A DNA stretch of 40,493 nucleotides from positions 1-40,493 of IMG/VR virus record IMGVR_UViG_3300035659_000048. The stretch is one strand, 5' to 3'. This DNA is from a virus. The notes under the pieces are model-generated. The model did not search any database. It worked only from the letters and a program-made list of their open reading frames with translations, and was not told the origin of the DNA. This document shows, in pieces, positions 1,427-8,716 of this stretch. The translations under genes and the position numbers were made by a program. The first letter of the stretch is position 1; each line of letters opens with the position of its first letter.

Positions 1427-2692
1427 TCACACCGCTTGTAGTTCTGCGGGCGCGCTGACGACCGCGCCGTCCTCGATGATGAATCCGCTCGTGGGCGAGT
1501 CGTCAACCACTTCGATCCAAACCTGGAAATCGTTCTCCCGCGCGATCGCTTCGAGCGTCGCCATGGACTCGGTATCGAGCAGGCTTCCATCCGTCACGCG
1601 CAGGACCTTGATGTCGGGCTTCTCGCTCATGGCAATCGCGCTGCTGATCTTGATCTGGTCGGAACTTGACAACTGAGCGAAGGGAATCCCGCGAGACAAA
1701 ATCTCGGTGCCGGTGATCGAAAGGTCTTCGACGGGTAATTTGCACTCGTGGAGCGACGCATCGAGTTGGCCCTGCGTGCGCGTGATCTCCTCGGTTTTCG
1801 CGACGTACTCGGCTTCTGCCTTTTCGGCGGAGACGGCTGCCTTCGTGCGTTCCGTGTTGGCGCGCACCTTCTTGTTCTCGACCTCGACGTTGCCGAGCCG
1901 CGCGCGGATTGCGTCCGTTGACTGCGGGGCATTATCGGGCTTGTCGCACTCGGCCTTGGTCACTTCGTAGTCGGCGTTCACCGCTTCCAGGTGCGCCTGC
2001 ATCTGCTTTGCCTCATCGAGTAGGTCGTCGATTTTGCGGGCCACGCGGATCGCCTCGTCCTTGAGTTGCCCGAGTTGCCCGACGCGCGCCGCCGCAACTC
2101 GGTTGTGCTCCTGGATGCGGTTGTACTCCTCCATCAGGTCCGTCACCGACACCTCGGTGCCGGGGGCATCCGCATGTACCGGCAGCGACGCGGCGTAGCC
2201 GGCCAGTCTATCCCGCTCCCGGCCGATCTGTCGCCGCTCCTCGGTGAGCTGCGCGATATGGCTGAGATATGCGTCCACGTCCACCCCGACGACCCGGCAT
2301 AGGATTGCGCGCTGCTCGGCGGGTTTCAGGCGGGTGAACGCCATGGGGTCTATCGACACCGAACCCACGCGCTCCTCAAGGAACTTCTGGGGGCTCTTCT
2401 TCGCGAATCCCTCCTTGTTTTCTACCGTCAAGCGTGCACCAGACGCGGTGATCGAGCGCTTGATGACGAATTCGCCGCAGTCAACCGCGATGTGCGCCGC
2501 GTTCTCGCCGGATCGGATCGGAAGCTCGGGAAGTTCGCGCCCTGATAGCGCGGCGGCAATGGCATCCAGCACGCTGCTCTTTCCCTGCCCGTTGCGCCCC
2601 GTGATGGTCACGAGTGGGCTGTCGGGGTCGGGCGTGATCTCGATGGCCTTGAGCCGCTTAAAATTCTCGGCCGTGAGTCGTACTATTCTCAT
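1427..2692 (-). CDS. RecF/SMC-like ATPase of the AAA_23 type (421 aa)
   Basis: ABC-type DNA repair ATPase. Walker A is GRNGQGKSS at residues 32-40, right after the N-terminal strand and FKRL motif typical of RecF/RecN/SMC proteins. Residues about 145-310 form a charged coiled coil. The C-terminal half-site follows with a signature-like FAQLSSSDQIK at 338-348. The Walker B position reads IKVLRVTDGSLLD instead of the usual hydrophobic-DE, so the classic glutamate is not obvious. I recall this form from other phage ATPases next to recombination genes, so it may be a family trait rather than damage. The start ATG at 2692 has an AGGGGG ribosome site about 8 bases upstream. It heads the unit transcribed from the promoter at 3084-3056 and follows a long structured leader. 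Likely role: DNA end or fork processing with the YqaJ exonuclease and annealing protein. Confidence 0.85.
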   Translation of the reverse strand: MRIVRLTAENFKRLKAIEITPDPDSPLVTITGRNGQGKSSVLDAIAAALSGRELPELPIRSGENAAHIAVDCGEFVIKRSITASGARLTVENKEGFAKKSPQKFLEERVGSVSIDPMAFTRLKPAEQRAILCRVVGVDVDAYLSHIAQLTEERRQIGRERDRLAGYAASLPVHADAPGTEVSVTDLMEEYNRIQEHNRVAAARVGQLGQLKDEAIRVARKIDDLLDEAKQMQAHLEAVNADYEVTKAECDKPDNAPQSTDAIRARLGNVEVENKKVRANTERTKAAVSAEKAEAEYVAKTEEITRTQGQLDASLHECKLPVEDLSITGTEILSRGIPFAQLSSSDQIKISSAIAMSEKPDIKVLRVTDGSLLDTESMATLEAIARENDFQVWIEVVDDSPTSGFIIEDGAVVSAPAELQAV

Positions 2693-2730
2693 TGTGTGCC
2701 CCCTGTGGTTAAATGGATAAACGGTTACAT

Positions 2731-2930
2731 CTCGGCTAAAAGATCAGAAGACTGATCGCCGAGAAGTCATGGCGTAAACGGCTGACTCCCGGAGTGGGTG
2801 AGAGATCGAACTCCCCACACAAGCGGTATATCCCCCGCTTCCGATGGGCCATAGTGATCGCGTCCAGCGATGCCTGTTATTCAGCATCCCGCGTGTCGGC
2901 GCATGTCTCCGTGCCGTACTCTCACTATGG
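2731..2930 (-). ncRNA. Structured untranslated region upstream of the ATPase gene
   Basis: No convincing gene lies between 2693 and 3080; this part holds a string of inverted repeats. An outer helix pairs 2849-2857 (CCATAGTGA) with 2922-2930 (TCACTATGG) and encloses two hairpins: 2897-2902 with 2911-2916, and 2869-2873 with 2884-2888. Below it are AAGCGG/CCGCTT (2821-2826 with 2835-2840), GTGGG/CCCAC (2794-2798 with 2814-2818, with GAG/CTC inside), and a long hairpin CTCGGC..GATCAG-AAGA-CTGATC-GCCGAG (2731-2763). That last hairpin is flanked by two plus-strand direct repeats of the form ATGG..TAAACGG (2713-2724 and 2769-2781). No tRNA could be fitted. It may be the distal half of a cis-regulatory leader, a larger structured RNA, or an origin-like DNA element. 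Confidence 0.55.
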
Positions 2931-2941
2931 GCCAGGGCAAC

Positions 2942-3018
2942 AAAAAAAGCCTGGCTGCTTCTCGTCAATCTCCCCAGGCCGACACCAAGGGGAAACTGAC
3001 TTTCGCAGCCAGGCTTTT
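2942..3018 (-). terminator. Intrinsic terminator with a very long loop
   Basis: On the minus strand AAAAGCCTGGCTGC (3018-3005) pairs perfectly with GCAGCCAGGC plus following Ts (2958-2945), giving a 12-14 bp stem. A run of seven Ts (2948-2942) follows. The loop is 46 bases, unusually long for a simple terminator, and contains one strand of an alternative 10-bp pairing. The plus strand also has a TTTT run after the stem, so it may act in both directions. It lies between the promoter and the ATPase gene, so read-through or antitermination is needed to express that operon. Confidence 0.7.
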
Positions 3019-3050
3019 CCGATCCTCTGGTGTCGGCAGAGAAACTGACA
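2942..3050 (-). ncRNA. Predicted short structured leader RNA or sRNA ending in an intrinsic terminator
   Basis: Transcription from the promoter at 3084-3056 should start near 3049 and meet a strong terminator about 105 bases later. The RNA contains the segment GCCGACACCA (3037-3028). This can fold back on GGTGTC at its own 5' end (3053-3047) or pair perfectly over 10 bp with TGGTGTCGGC (2987-2978). The second partner lies inside the terminator loop, so the alternatives are competing or pseudoknotted. The motif GTCAGTTTC occurs twice. These features fit either a conditional attenuator controlling the ATPase operon or a free-standing small RNA. I recognise no known riboswitch class. Confidence 0.6.
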
Positions 3051-3055
3051 CCACT

Positions 3056-3084
3056 AATATAGCTTGATTCGGAGTGCATGTCAA
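3056..3084 (-). promoter_or_regulatory. Sigma70-type early promoter of the ATPase operon
   Basis: On the minus strand a perfect -35 TTGACA (3084-3079) is followed by exactly 17 bases and -10 TATATT (3061-3056, five of six consensus bases). The -35 overlaps the stop codon of the annealing-protein gene. The same hexamers with the same spacing occur at 5808-5780 and 8716-8688. The predicted start site is near 3049, at the head of the structured leader. Confidence 0.75.
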
Positions 3085-4199
3085 CCCCTATTTGCCGAGG
3101 CGTCTTTCTTGTCGATGAAATTGGAAACGCTTTTCATGAACCCAGCACCTGCCGCGACGATGGTCTTGAGGTTGTCTGGCGTCGCGTGCTGCCATGTCTG
3201 GCCGGCGGTAATCCACTTATGCGCAATGCCGTACTCGGTCACCATCGGACCGGACTCTCCGATGATCGCGGTGCACTGCGCGAGAAGTTCGGTCGGGGCT
3301 TCGGCCTTTTTCCCGATTGCCGCCTTGAGCCCGGCGGCGCCTTTGCCAATCGGTTCGGCGGATTTCTCCCCGTCCGCGTTTCGTCCGTCCATCACTTCGC
3401 GCCAGGTAGTTTCGCCGTCCTTGATTGCGGAGTAGAGTGCCCGCAGATCGGAAAGCTCTTTCGGGTCGAGAGTCCCGCAGTCGTGGCCCAGGTAGCGCTT
3501 GACCTCGTCCGCGGGCACTCCTACGGCGGAGAATGCGTCTAGCAGCTTCTTGCGCGCCGCGTCCGGGTCCACGGCGTCGCGCTTGCTTTGCGTGACGGCT
3601 ACGGCATCCATGGCCTCATCGATGATGTCGCCCGGCACCAGGCGCAATCCGAGCGTGCGGATTGCTTTCGAGATGAGCGCGTTCTGCTTGTTGAGAATGT
3701 CGTCGTCGGTGGCTCGCACGATGTAAACGATTTGGTTTTGTTTGTTCGTGCGCTGACTCACGACCTCGTATCCTGCCGGGTTCTTGCGTTCAACGGTCTT
3801 CTGGATCGTGACATCCTGCGAGTAGTCGTGATTGGATTCCAGGTCGGTGCAGCACACGCGCACGATGCGCTTCTCGGCATCGTCGTAGACCGTCATGCAC
3901 GAGATGTCGATGTTGCCGAGACACCGGATCGCGGCCTCGGCGAACCGAATGGACGGCCCGACGATGGATGATTCGCCCACCGGTTTGGAGTATTTCGCAG
4001 CCTCGGCAAATCCGGGGCGGGCGCACTCCTTGAGGATGCGCTGGCGGGCGAGGTCCATGTCGCGGGGTTGGTGTTTCGCCATCAGGTAGCGCGCCTCGAT
4101 GATTGCCCGTGCCTGCGCCGCCACCGCGGTCGATGCGGTCTCGTTTGTCTGGATTGCCTTGTTCTGGCCCTGTGCCTGTTCGATCATGGTTTCGTTCAT
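3081..4199 (-). CDS. Putative phage single-strand annealing or recombination protein (372 aa)
   Basis: I recall this as a phage early protein commonly found next to a YqaJ-type exonuclease. The conserved-looking block is residues 30-215: EARYLMAKHQPRDMDLARQ, then GPSIRFAEAAIRCLGNIDIS, a central strand-rich part, ending LGLRLVPGDIIDEAM. The pairing with an exonuclease suggests the Exo/SSAP arrangement seen with RecT or Redbeta, in which the exonuclease exposes single strands and this protein anneals them. Function is inferred mainly from context. The C-terminal third (about 235-372) is less conserved-looking and alanine-rich. The ATG at 4199 has AAGGAGTG upstream, and the gene starts 4 bases after the exonuclease stop. 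An alternative is a single-stranded DNA-binding replication accessory protein. Confidence 0.65.
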   Translation of the reverse strand: MNETMIEQAQGQNKAIQTNETASTAVAAQARAIIEARYLMAKHQPRDMDLARQRILKECARPGFAEAAKYSKPVGESSIVGPSIRFAEAAIRCLGNIDISCMTVYDDAEKRIVRVCCTDLESNHDYSQDVTIQKTVERKNPAGYEVVSQRTNKQNQIVYIVRATDDDILNKQNALISKAIRTLGLRLVPGDIIDEAMDAVAVTQSKRDAVDPDAARKKLLDAFSAVGVPADEVKRYLGHDCGTLDPKELSDLRALYSAIKDGETTWREVMDGRNADGEKSAEPIGKGAAGLKAAIGKKAEAPTELLAQCTAIIGESGPMVTEYGIAHKWITAGQTWQHATPDNLKTIVAAGAGFMKSVSNFIDKKDASANRG

Positions 4200-4203
4200 T
4201 GGA

Positions 4204-5145
4204 TCACTCCTTGTCCCAGGTTGGTTTGAGGTATGATGCGCGCTGCGACTTCGTGGTGTGCCGCATAATTAGCTCCTGCGACGCACCAGAGGCCTCAGAA
4301 ACCGCTTTCCAGTCGGTCTTGGTAGTTTCGGACCCCCGGACGACCGTGATGCGGCCTACGCCAGCTATCGCGGTCCGGTCGAACTCGCCCATGCCGGCCA
4401 GTATCCGGTTCTTGAGCGTTGCCTCCAGCTCCTCCAGCTCGTTCTTCTGGTGGTGGATGTCGCGCAGTGCCGCCACGTCATCGATCAGGGGGGCCGGGGG
4501 CGCGGCGAGGATGCCCTTCTTGCCCACATATTGCCGCGTGATCCAGTACCGGCACGACTCGCTGCCGTCGATCGGTGGCGGGGTCTTCGCCGTCACCAGC
4601 GCCCAGAACTCCCGCGCCCGGCTGACGAACTCGCCGAACAATTCCCGATCCATCGGCACGTTGTAGGTCCGCATGTCGGACCCACCGATCAGCACCGTGA
4701 CGTGCGCCATATTCCAACCGATAAGCCCCATGTACCACATCACCTGTGTGAGGTAGTACATCGGGATGTCGTCGGTGCCCTGGTCGCCCCATCCATGTGC
4801 GCCGCGCGCAGTTTTGATCTCCAGCACGATTTGCTCTTCGGGGCGCAGGTAGTCCGGCGTTCCGCCCGCCGGGAGTCCGTCGAAGTCGCGTGTTGTAAAC
4901 TCGCCCTTGACGAGGCTCTTTGCCCCACACTCCTGCATGTAGGCGTCGGCAATCGCGGGCTCCAGTCGTGTGCCCCAGCGCATCGCCTCGTTTGCCTGAT
5001 CGGGTAAATCCTGTGGATCGACTTTCGATTGCCAAACCTGAAATGGCGTCGTCCATGGAGAGATCCCGAGAATGCCCGCGATGTCTGTGCCTGTCACGCA
5101 GAGCATTCGTTTCTTCAGCCAGTCCGCGCGTTCGGTTGGTGTCAT
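4204..5145 (-). CDS. YqaJ-family (lambda Exo-like) recombination exonuclease (313 aa)
   Basis: A PD-(D/E)XK exonuclease expected to resect double-stranded DNA ends for annealing. The N-terminal VTGTDIAGILG (about residues 18-27), MRWGTRLEPAIADAY (55-69), the catalytic GTPDYL with D98 and VLEIKTA with E109 and K111, and YYLTQVMWYM with Q134 are in the usual YqaJ order. The C-terminal third is a predicted helical and coiled region (HHQKNELEELEATLKNR) followed by a lysine/tyrosine-rich tail, as in many phage homologues of 300-330 aa. The start has a perfect AAGGAGG 8 bases upstream. It is directly followed by the putative annealing protein gene, forming an end-resection and annealing pair for phage recombination. 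Confidence 0.88.
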   Translation of the reverse strand: MTPTERADWLKKRMLCVTGTDIAGILGISPWTTPFQVWQSKVDPQDLPDQANEAMRWGTRLEPAIADAYMQECGAKSLVKGEFTTRDFDGLPAGGTPDYLRPEEQIVLEIKTARGAHGWGDQGTDDIPMYYLTQVMWYMGLIGWNMAHVTVLIGGSDMRTYNVPMDRELFGEFVSRAREFWALVTAKTPPPIDGSESCRYWITRQYVGKKGILAAPPAPLIDDVAALRDIHHQKNELEELEATLKNRILAGMGEFDRTAIAGVGRITVVRGSETTKTDWKAVSEASGASQELIMRHTTKSQRASYLKPTWDKE

Positions 5146-8576: not shown

Positions 8577-8628
8577 GAAAAAGCCCCTCGGATGCGCCAG
8601 CCCCGCAAAAGGAAAGCGCACCCCGAGG
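8577..8628 (-). terminator. Attenuator-type intrinsic terminator in the replication operon leader
   Basis: On the minus strand CCTCGGGGTGCGC (8628-8616) pairs with GCGCATCCGAGG (8597-8586), an 11-12 bp stem with one bulge, followed by GGCTTTTT (8585-8578). It lies between the promoter at 8716-8688 and the GTG start at 8563, so it must be bypassed to express the replication genes. Its 18-base loop contains TTGCGGGGC (8608-8600), fully complementary to GCCCCGCAA at the 5' end of the leader (8680-8672). Confidence 0.68.
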
Positions 8629-8680
8629 CGTTGATTCGCAGGGGCGTTAGATAGTCAAAATCGTGGAAACCTTGCGGGGC
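8600..8680 (-). ncRNA. Leader RNA with alternative pairings ahead of replication genes
   Basis: The predicted transcript from the promoter at 8716-8688 begins near 8681 with GCCCCGCAAGG. The first nine bases are perfectly complementary to a segment of the downstream terminator loop (8608-8600). Formation of this helix would compete with, or make a pseudoknot with, the terminator. The layout (strong promoter, about 80-base sensor region, terminator, start codon) is that of an attenuation or riboswitch-like leader. No known class was recognised and no leader peptide is evident. Confidence 0.5.
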
Positions 8681-8687
8681 ATGACTG

Positions 8688-8716
8688 AATATAATGCGTT
8701 TGCAGGCCCGTGTCAA
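8688..8716 (-). promoter_or_regulatory. Sigma70-type early promoter of the replication operon
   Basis: On the minus strand a perfect TTGACA (8716-8711), 17 bases, and TATATT (8693-8688). Identical hexamers and spacing are found ahead of the other two early units. The predicted start is near 8681. Its strength suggests immediate-early expression by the unmodified host polymerase. Confidence 0.78.

Follow-up and report, generated by a model that had tools for sequence, protein, structure and literature searches.

The leader of a phage ATPase operon, encoded in a 388-nt intergenic gap, contains a structured RNA with near certainty. This is a real, unnamed structured phage RNA that is confined, as known, to one phage lineage. 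With moderate confidence the leader is read as a cis-acting attenuator and structured 5' UTR of the operon, in which a pairing between two loops would set termination against readthrough. The loop-pairing leader has counterparts in unrelated phages, and it looks like a built-in on/off switch.

Architecture of the leader RNA

The window, meaning the whole stretch of DNA analysed, is a 40,493-base linear IMG/VR record representing the genome of a tailed phage, and almost all of its genes lie on the minus strand. On that strand, the gap is flanked by the gene of a RecF/SbcC-like ATPase on one side and by a phrog_3657 gene on the other (Table 1), the latter placed, beside an exonuclease gene, where a single-strand annealing or recombination protein would be encoded. 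The promoter claimed for this region by an earlier sequence-only reading is present in the sequence and scores 11/12. Two further promoters of the same form occur on the same strand (8716-8688 and 5808-5780), the one at 5808-5780 leading into a start codon with an ordinary ribosome-binding site. On the plus strand opposite the leader, a search for an antisense promoter gave a best match of 8/12 and none above.

The same reading had described a terminator of 12-14 bp with a 46-base loop. A stem of 14 bp (AAAAGCCTGGCTGC/GCAGCCAGGCTTTT) was found, enclosing a loop of 46 nt (3004-2959) and followed by a U7 tail; the loop is not open, since it holds a 12-bp hairpin. This is by far the strongest combination of hairpin and U-tract on the minus strand (-61, with -40.5 for the runner-up), and the fold of the terminator part has a z of -6.7 relative to shuffles. 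A hairpin at the 5' end presents GCCGACACCA (3037-3028) in its loop, and this segment is complementary over 10 bp to TGGTGTCGGC (2987-2978) in the apical loop of the terminator. Such a loop-loop pairing is a pseudoknot and is invisible to any nested fold.

Downstream of the terminator, a multibranched domain closed by CCATAGTGA/TCACTATGG (2930-2922/2857-2849) leads into another four hairpins before the ATPase start, so the chain of helices noted earlier is present. The minus-strand fold of the gap reached a z of -6.3, with 0/100 shuffles as good (plus strand, z -5.4), and in a 200-nt scan across the whole window the top two of 403 segments fell within the gap. The motif CCGUUUA lies unpaired at 2781-2775 and 2724-2718; these are its sole two occurrences in the window, both on the minus strand, and they are invariant in both known alleles. 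At 2794-2840, a hairpin with a GG-containing loop adjoins one whose invariant UUCGA loop is closed by G-C, an arrangement similar to the D-loop/T-loop elbow of a tRNA. No tRNA or tmRNA was detected in the region with ARAGORN.

Table 1. Features of the ATPase leader, its flanking genes and the second leader in the window
Feature	Position	Strand	Details
RecF/SbcC-like ATPase gene	1427..2692	minus	phrog_1499, AAA_23; downstream of leader
Most conserved 3' part	2713..2790	minus	hairpins AGUCA/UGACU and UCUCGGC[GAUCAG..CUGAUC]GCCGAGA; two unpaired CCGUUUA
Hairpin GUGGG-GAG-UUCGAU-CUC-UCA-CCCAC	2794..2818	minus	UUCGA loop invariant; compensatory pairs G-C to U-A, U-A to C-G
Hairpin AAGCGG/CCGCUU	2821..2840	minus	loop GGGAUAUA; one compensatory pair, A-U to G-C
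Multibranched domain	2849..2930	minus	closing helix CCAUAGUGA/UCACUAUGG; covariation, no broken pair
Terminator	2942..3018	minus	outer stem AAAAGCCUGGCUGC/GCAGCCAGGCUUUU; inner hairpin 3000-2989/2975-2964; U7 2948-2942
Terminator apical-loop segment UGGUGUCGGC	2978..2987	minus	complements 5' hairpin loop; kissing or pseudoknot pairing
5' hairpin UUCUCU-GCCGACACC-AGAGGA	3023..3043	minus	loop presents GCCGACACCA
Promoter TTGACA-17-TATATT	3084-3056	minus	sigma-70-type, 11/12
phrog_3657 gene	3081..4199	minus	upstream of leader; adjoins YqaJ/RecE-like exonuclease gene
Second leader, same architecture	8578..8716	minus	promoter 8716-8688; before DnaD-like gene

Covariation between the two alleles

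Only two alleles of the leader are known, the second being carried by contig IMGVR_UViG_3300031999_000047 (L003). This contig is ~99-100% identical to the window over the preceding genes, about 76-80% identical over the leader and of uneven identity within the ATPase gene, a pattern resembling the exchange of a divergent allele. The -10 element of its promoter is the same as that of the window, whereas the -35 element is weaker (TTGTGC), giving 8/12. A perfect inverted repeat, GGTTGT-GCGAATG-ACAACC (~4602-4620, plus strand of L003), extends across this weak -35 region and is absent from the window allele; it is a possible operator. Between two otherwise near-identical phage contigs, L022 (6001-8100) and L023, a mosaic of 73-100% identity is centred on the leader RNA and ATPase gene, and reflects recombination with a divergent relative.

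Covariation of the helices had been named beforehand as the test capable of refuting a structured RNA, and the helices do covary between the two alleles, the loop-loop pairing included. Over the whole leader, 12 of 105 pairs have changed on both sides and seven on one side, and none is broken. The downstream part (223 columns) contributes eight doubly changed pairs and no broken ones, compared with a mean of 1.8 and a maximum of 6 in a null of 300 trials, in which an equal number of substitutions was placed randomly and the sequences refolded and optimised. In the terminator part, four pairs have changed on both sides and five on one side, again with none broken; the count of double changes by itself is within the reach of the null, while the consensus energy is beyond it. 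Several of the terminator changes are compensatory or involve G-U, and the outer stem of L003 contains one A-C mismatch, located outside the consensus pairs.

The individual elements follow the same pattern. One pair in the stem of the 5' hairpin covaries (U-A to C-G), and the closing helix of the multibranched domain has changed from A-U to G-C and from A-U to C-G, with further exchanges in its inner arms (C-G to U-A and G-C to A-U). Within 2713-2790 the alleles differ at three positions only, two of which form one compensatory pair, and the final ~80 nt before the ATPase gene are nearly unchanged. The helix between the 5' loop and the terminator loop, of 10 bp in the window, is retained at 8 bp in L003 and includes two fully compensated pairs. 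Its energy within each allele is -18.8 and -14.5 kcal/mol, a strength equalled by 0/2000 and 1/2000 shuffles, whereas pairing between the alleles is poor (about -6.5). The sequence-only reading had also proposed that GCCGACACCA pairs with the extreme 5' end of the RNA; this alternative exists in the window and is absent from L003, so that a mutual exclusion involving the 5' end is not conserved. A third GCCGACAC copy in the window (2900-2893) likewise has no counterpart in L003. Across the whole transcript the sense (minus) strand scored better than the antisense strand, with lower energy and three times as many G-U cells, and the RNA sense favoured by the fold is that of the promoter, the U-tract and both genes.

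The suggestion of a new structured RNA family held in that the leader gave no Rfam match at the gathering cut-off, with weak matches far below it, and was narrowed in scope to one phage lineage. No DNA relatives of note were found among named phages and plasmids. A pattern search of viral and genome contigs returned only the two known alleles, as did a covariance model (R1) applied to about 120 loci together with 16 genomes or records. Candidate alleles at L049 (a 17-mer matching by chance within a portal gene) and at L050-L056 (chance matches) were rejected. Because L024 and L045, which carry close phrog_3657 relatives, have no gap before the ATPase gene, the leader RNA looks like a lineage-specific insertion.

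Leaders of similar layout in the window and in other phages

The second leader in the window (Table 1) carries GCCCCGCAAGG near its 5' end (8680-8670), CCUUUUGCGGGGC in the terminator apical loop (8612-8600) and a U5 tail. The 5' segment and the apical loop are complementary over 11 bp (P about 0.002-0.008), and the overall fold is unexceptional (z -1.2). Its sequence is the same in a related contig and for this reason gives no test of covariation. An 11-codon open frame (MPRKVSTILTI) ends just ahead of the terminator.

An unbiased screen covered 97 long-loop terminators from 827 kb of fetched phage DNA; the two alleles of the ATPase leader and a set of A+T-rich phages came out best. A group of 34 loci (25 distinct leaders aligned) from Bacteroidetes-type phages, termed group B, was collected among L075-L125 (L112:1534-1640, L120:1541-1646, L107:157-263 and 31 others). 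Each comprises a Bacteroidetes-type promoter, a segment of 8-10 nt where the RNA probably begins, and a stem that stops immediately ahead of a DnaD-like gene's start codon; this distance is partly set by construction because the collection required the start motif of that gene. The 5' segment is complementary to the stem loop in every member, yet its sequences are entirely different (GCGUACCCU, GCUCGUUCG, GACUAUCCG, GCUACUCAG and others). When the segment/loop helix was counted as a pseudoknot, it was 99.5% paired and 7/9 pairs were doubly changed; for the whole structure, both the percentage paired and the covariation score beat all 500 shuffles and every slid version. In some group B leaders the U-tract is weak or improper, and the stem is nonetheless conserved. 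The group B leader had no match in Rfam, and a conserved leader peptide was rejected, as the reading frame is not kept from member to member and in two of them it ends after four codons.

A small further group (L113:790-925, L116, L122, L123, L130:1505-1640 and L131) has a strong terminator before a DnaD-like gene. By eye and in the screen, two leader segments of these loci each find a pairing partner in the terminator loop, such as UUAGACC with GGUCUAA and CCGAGAA with UUCUCGG. Both groups share layout, not sequence, with the ATPase leader and are analogues rather than members. Like the ATPase leader, group B combines a promoter, a 5' segment and a terminator-like stem whose loop pairs with that segment, placed before a replication gene; unlike it, the group B leaders are short (about 100 nt), A+T-rich, unrelated in sequence and devoid of a large 3' domain. 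It is a speculative and quite unlikely proposal that all these belong to a widespread class of phage leaders that arose several times, in which a fast-changing pair of 5' segment and early-terminator loop, held in a conserved frame before replication and recombination genes, would act as a self/non-self tag for superinfection immunity or copy control.

Proposed attenuation, alternative readings and known systems

Transcription attenuation has been described in general terms (PMC7430163), and its layout is found at the locus, where promoter, intrinsic terminator and operon follow one another in that order. Transcription would start at about 3049, and the nascent RNA would reach the strong intrinsic terminator, if this works as predicted, after about 108 nt. 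Complementarity and covariation show that the 5' hairpin loop pairs with the terminator apical loop. This pairing can form ahead of the synthesis of the terminator's 3' arm and so probably determines whether the outer stem closes in time. Loop pairing and outer stem would then compete during transcription and set the ratio of short RNA to readthrough, the outcomes being either a terminated RNA of ~110 nt or readthrough into the ~220-nt structured 5' UTR and the ATPase gene. The loop pairing could favour or hinder termination, the sequence alone being compatible with either, and it may coexist with the terminator stem as a pseudoknot. The 3' part, with its two unpaired motifs just before the start codon, is probably a site for a regulator, most simply a phage protein. 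Among the functions that the sequence-only reading had offered, a conditional attenuator fits best and is favoured by the analogous leaders, with the switching step itself a prediction. The same layout occurs independently at 8716 and in the 34 Bacteroidetes-type loci, right before a replication gene. Against attenuation, the conserved 220-nt 3' domain exceeds what an attenuator needs, the -35 element of L003 is weak and there are just two alleles.

The main rival is a role in trans, because divergence in group B is faster in the paired segment than in its frame and, here, faster in the leader than in the preceding gene. The promoter-terminator unit would make an sRNA of ~110 nt that pairs, through its 5' loop or its terminator loop, with the corresponding leader of another copy; the result would be feedback or specificity in superinfection, comparable to antisense control in plasmids or to RNA immunity of the P4/P1-c4 type in phages, and the downstream fold would be separate. 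The spacing from the promoter to the strong U7 terminator suits an sRNA and fits this reading, as do alleles that self-pair but cross-pair poorly, a leader that diverges beside a gene of ~100% identity, and the many sequences taken by the group B segment inside a nearly fixed frame. However, both partners lie on one molecule, which should give pairing in cis the advantage; no antisense promoter scores above 8/12, the third GCCGACAC copy is unmatched in L003, and the covariation by itself also fits an ordinary helix, since compensatory helix drift would look alike. A trans role is considered unlikely. It is also doubtful that the terminator only ends the exonuclease/recombination operon, with the remainder a 5' UTR acting on ATPase translation or mRNA stability and the loop pairing just stabilising the RNA. 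A strong terminator does stand behind phrog_3657, the most conserved part adjoins the ATPase start and some group B leaders lack a proper U-tract though the stem is conserved; yet the 11/12 promoter precedes the terminator rather than following it, and the loop pairing has been kept despite changed sequence.

Very improbable is a processive antitermination element, put-like or EAR-like, in which the 220-nt domain would act on RNA polymerase. The domain is a structured RNA early in a phage operon, and put RNAs, too, are structured and lie close to early promoters as leaders (PMC9378689), but it sits after the first terminator rather than before it, far exceeds a two-hairpin put RNA in size, and has no further strong terminator downstream of it in the operon. 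A small protein gene is contradicted by the substitutions. The 111-aa frame (2744-3079, minus) is open in both alleles with the same stop, but the substitutions are spread 10/12/11 over the codon positions, and this even spread argues for selection on RNA, not protein; three single-base indels, the lack of a ribosome-binding site and the lack of a family match also count against it.

Among known systems, the put RNA of phage HK022 comprises about 70 nt folded into two stem-loops, and its target is the beta' zinc-binding domain (PMC9378689). The ATPase leader shares with it a structured RNA near an early phage promoter; at about 350 nt, and beginning with a terminator, it does not fit the description of a put element. 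In the RNA immunity of phages P4 (CI) and P1 (c4), self-complementary leader segments and premature termination occur together with diverging specificity. All three traits recur here, termination by prediction, whereas the leader has no C4-type match in Rfam and the window no recognised lysogeny gene. A P4-like immunity RNA with three mutually complementary segments was rejected, the third segment being present in the window only and not conserved.

The leader adds a covariation-supported, unnamed RNA to those of phages, together with a recurrent, testable design in which a 5' segment is paired to a terminator loop before phage replication genes. Sequence-based annotation and Rfam miss this design because the pair is a pseudoknot and changes quickly in sequence. 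If the leader does switch termination, phage replication would be timed at a control point made of RNA alone. The rep leaders of pIP501/Inc18 and pT181 combine a promoter, a terminator and, upstream, a segment able to pair with part of the terminator region, before replication functions. They differ from the phage leader in that the plasmid segment pairs with an arm of the terminator stem and the phage segment with the loop, in unrelated sequence, and in the antisense promoter, for which the best match here is 8/12. Alike in both are the promoter, the terminator and the pairing upstream segment, placed ahead of DNA-replication functions.
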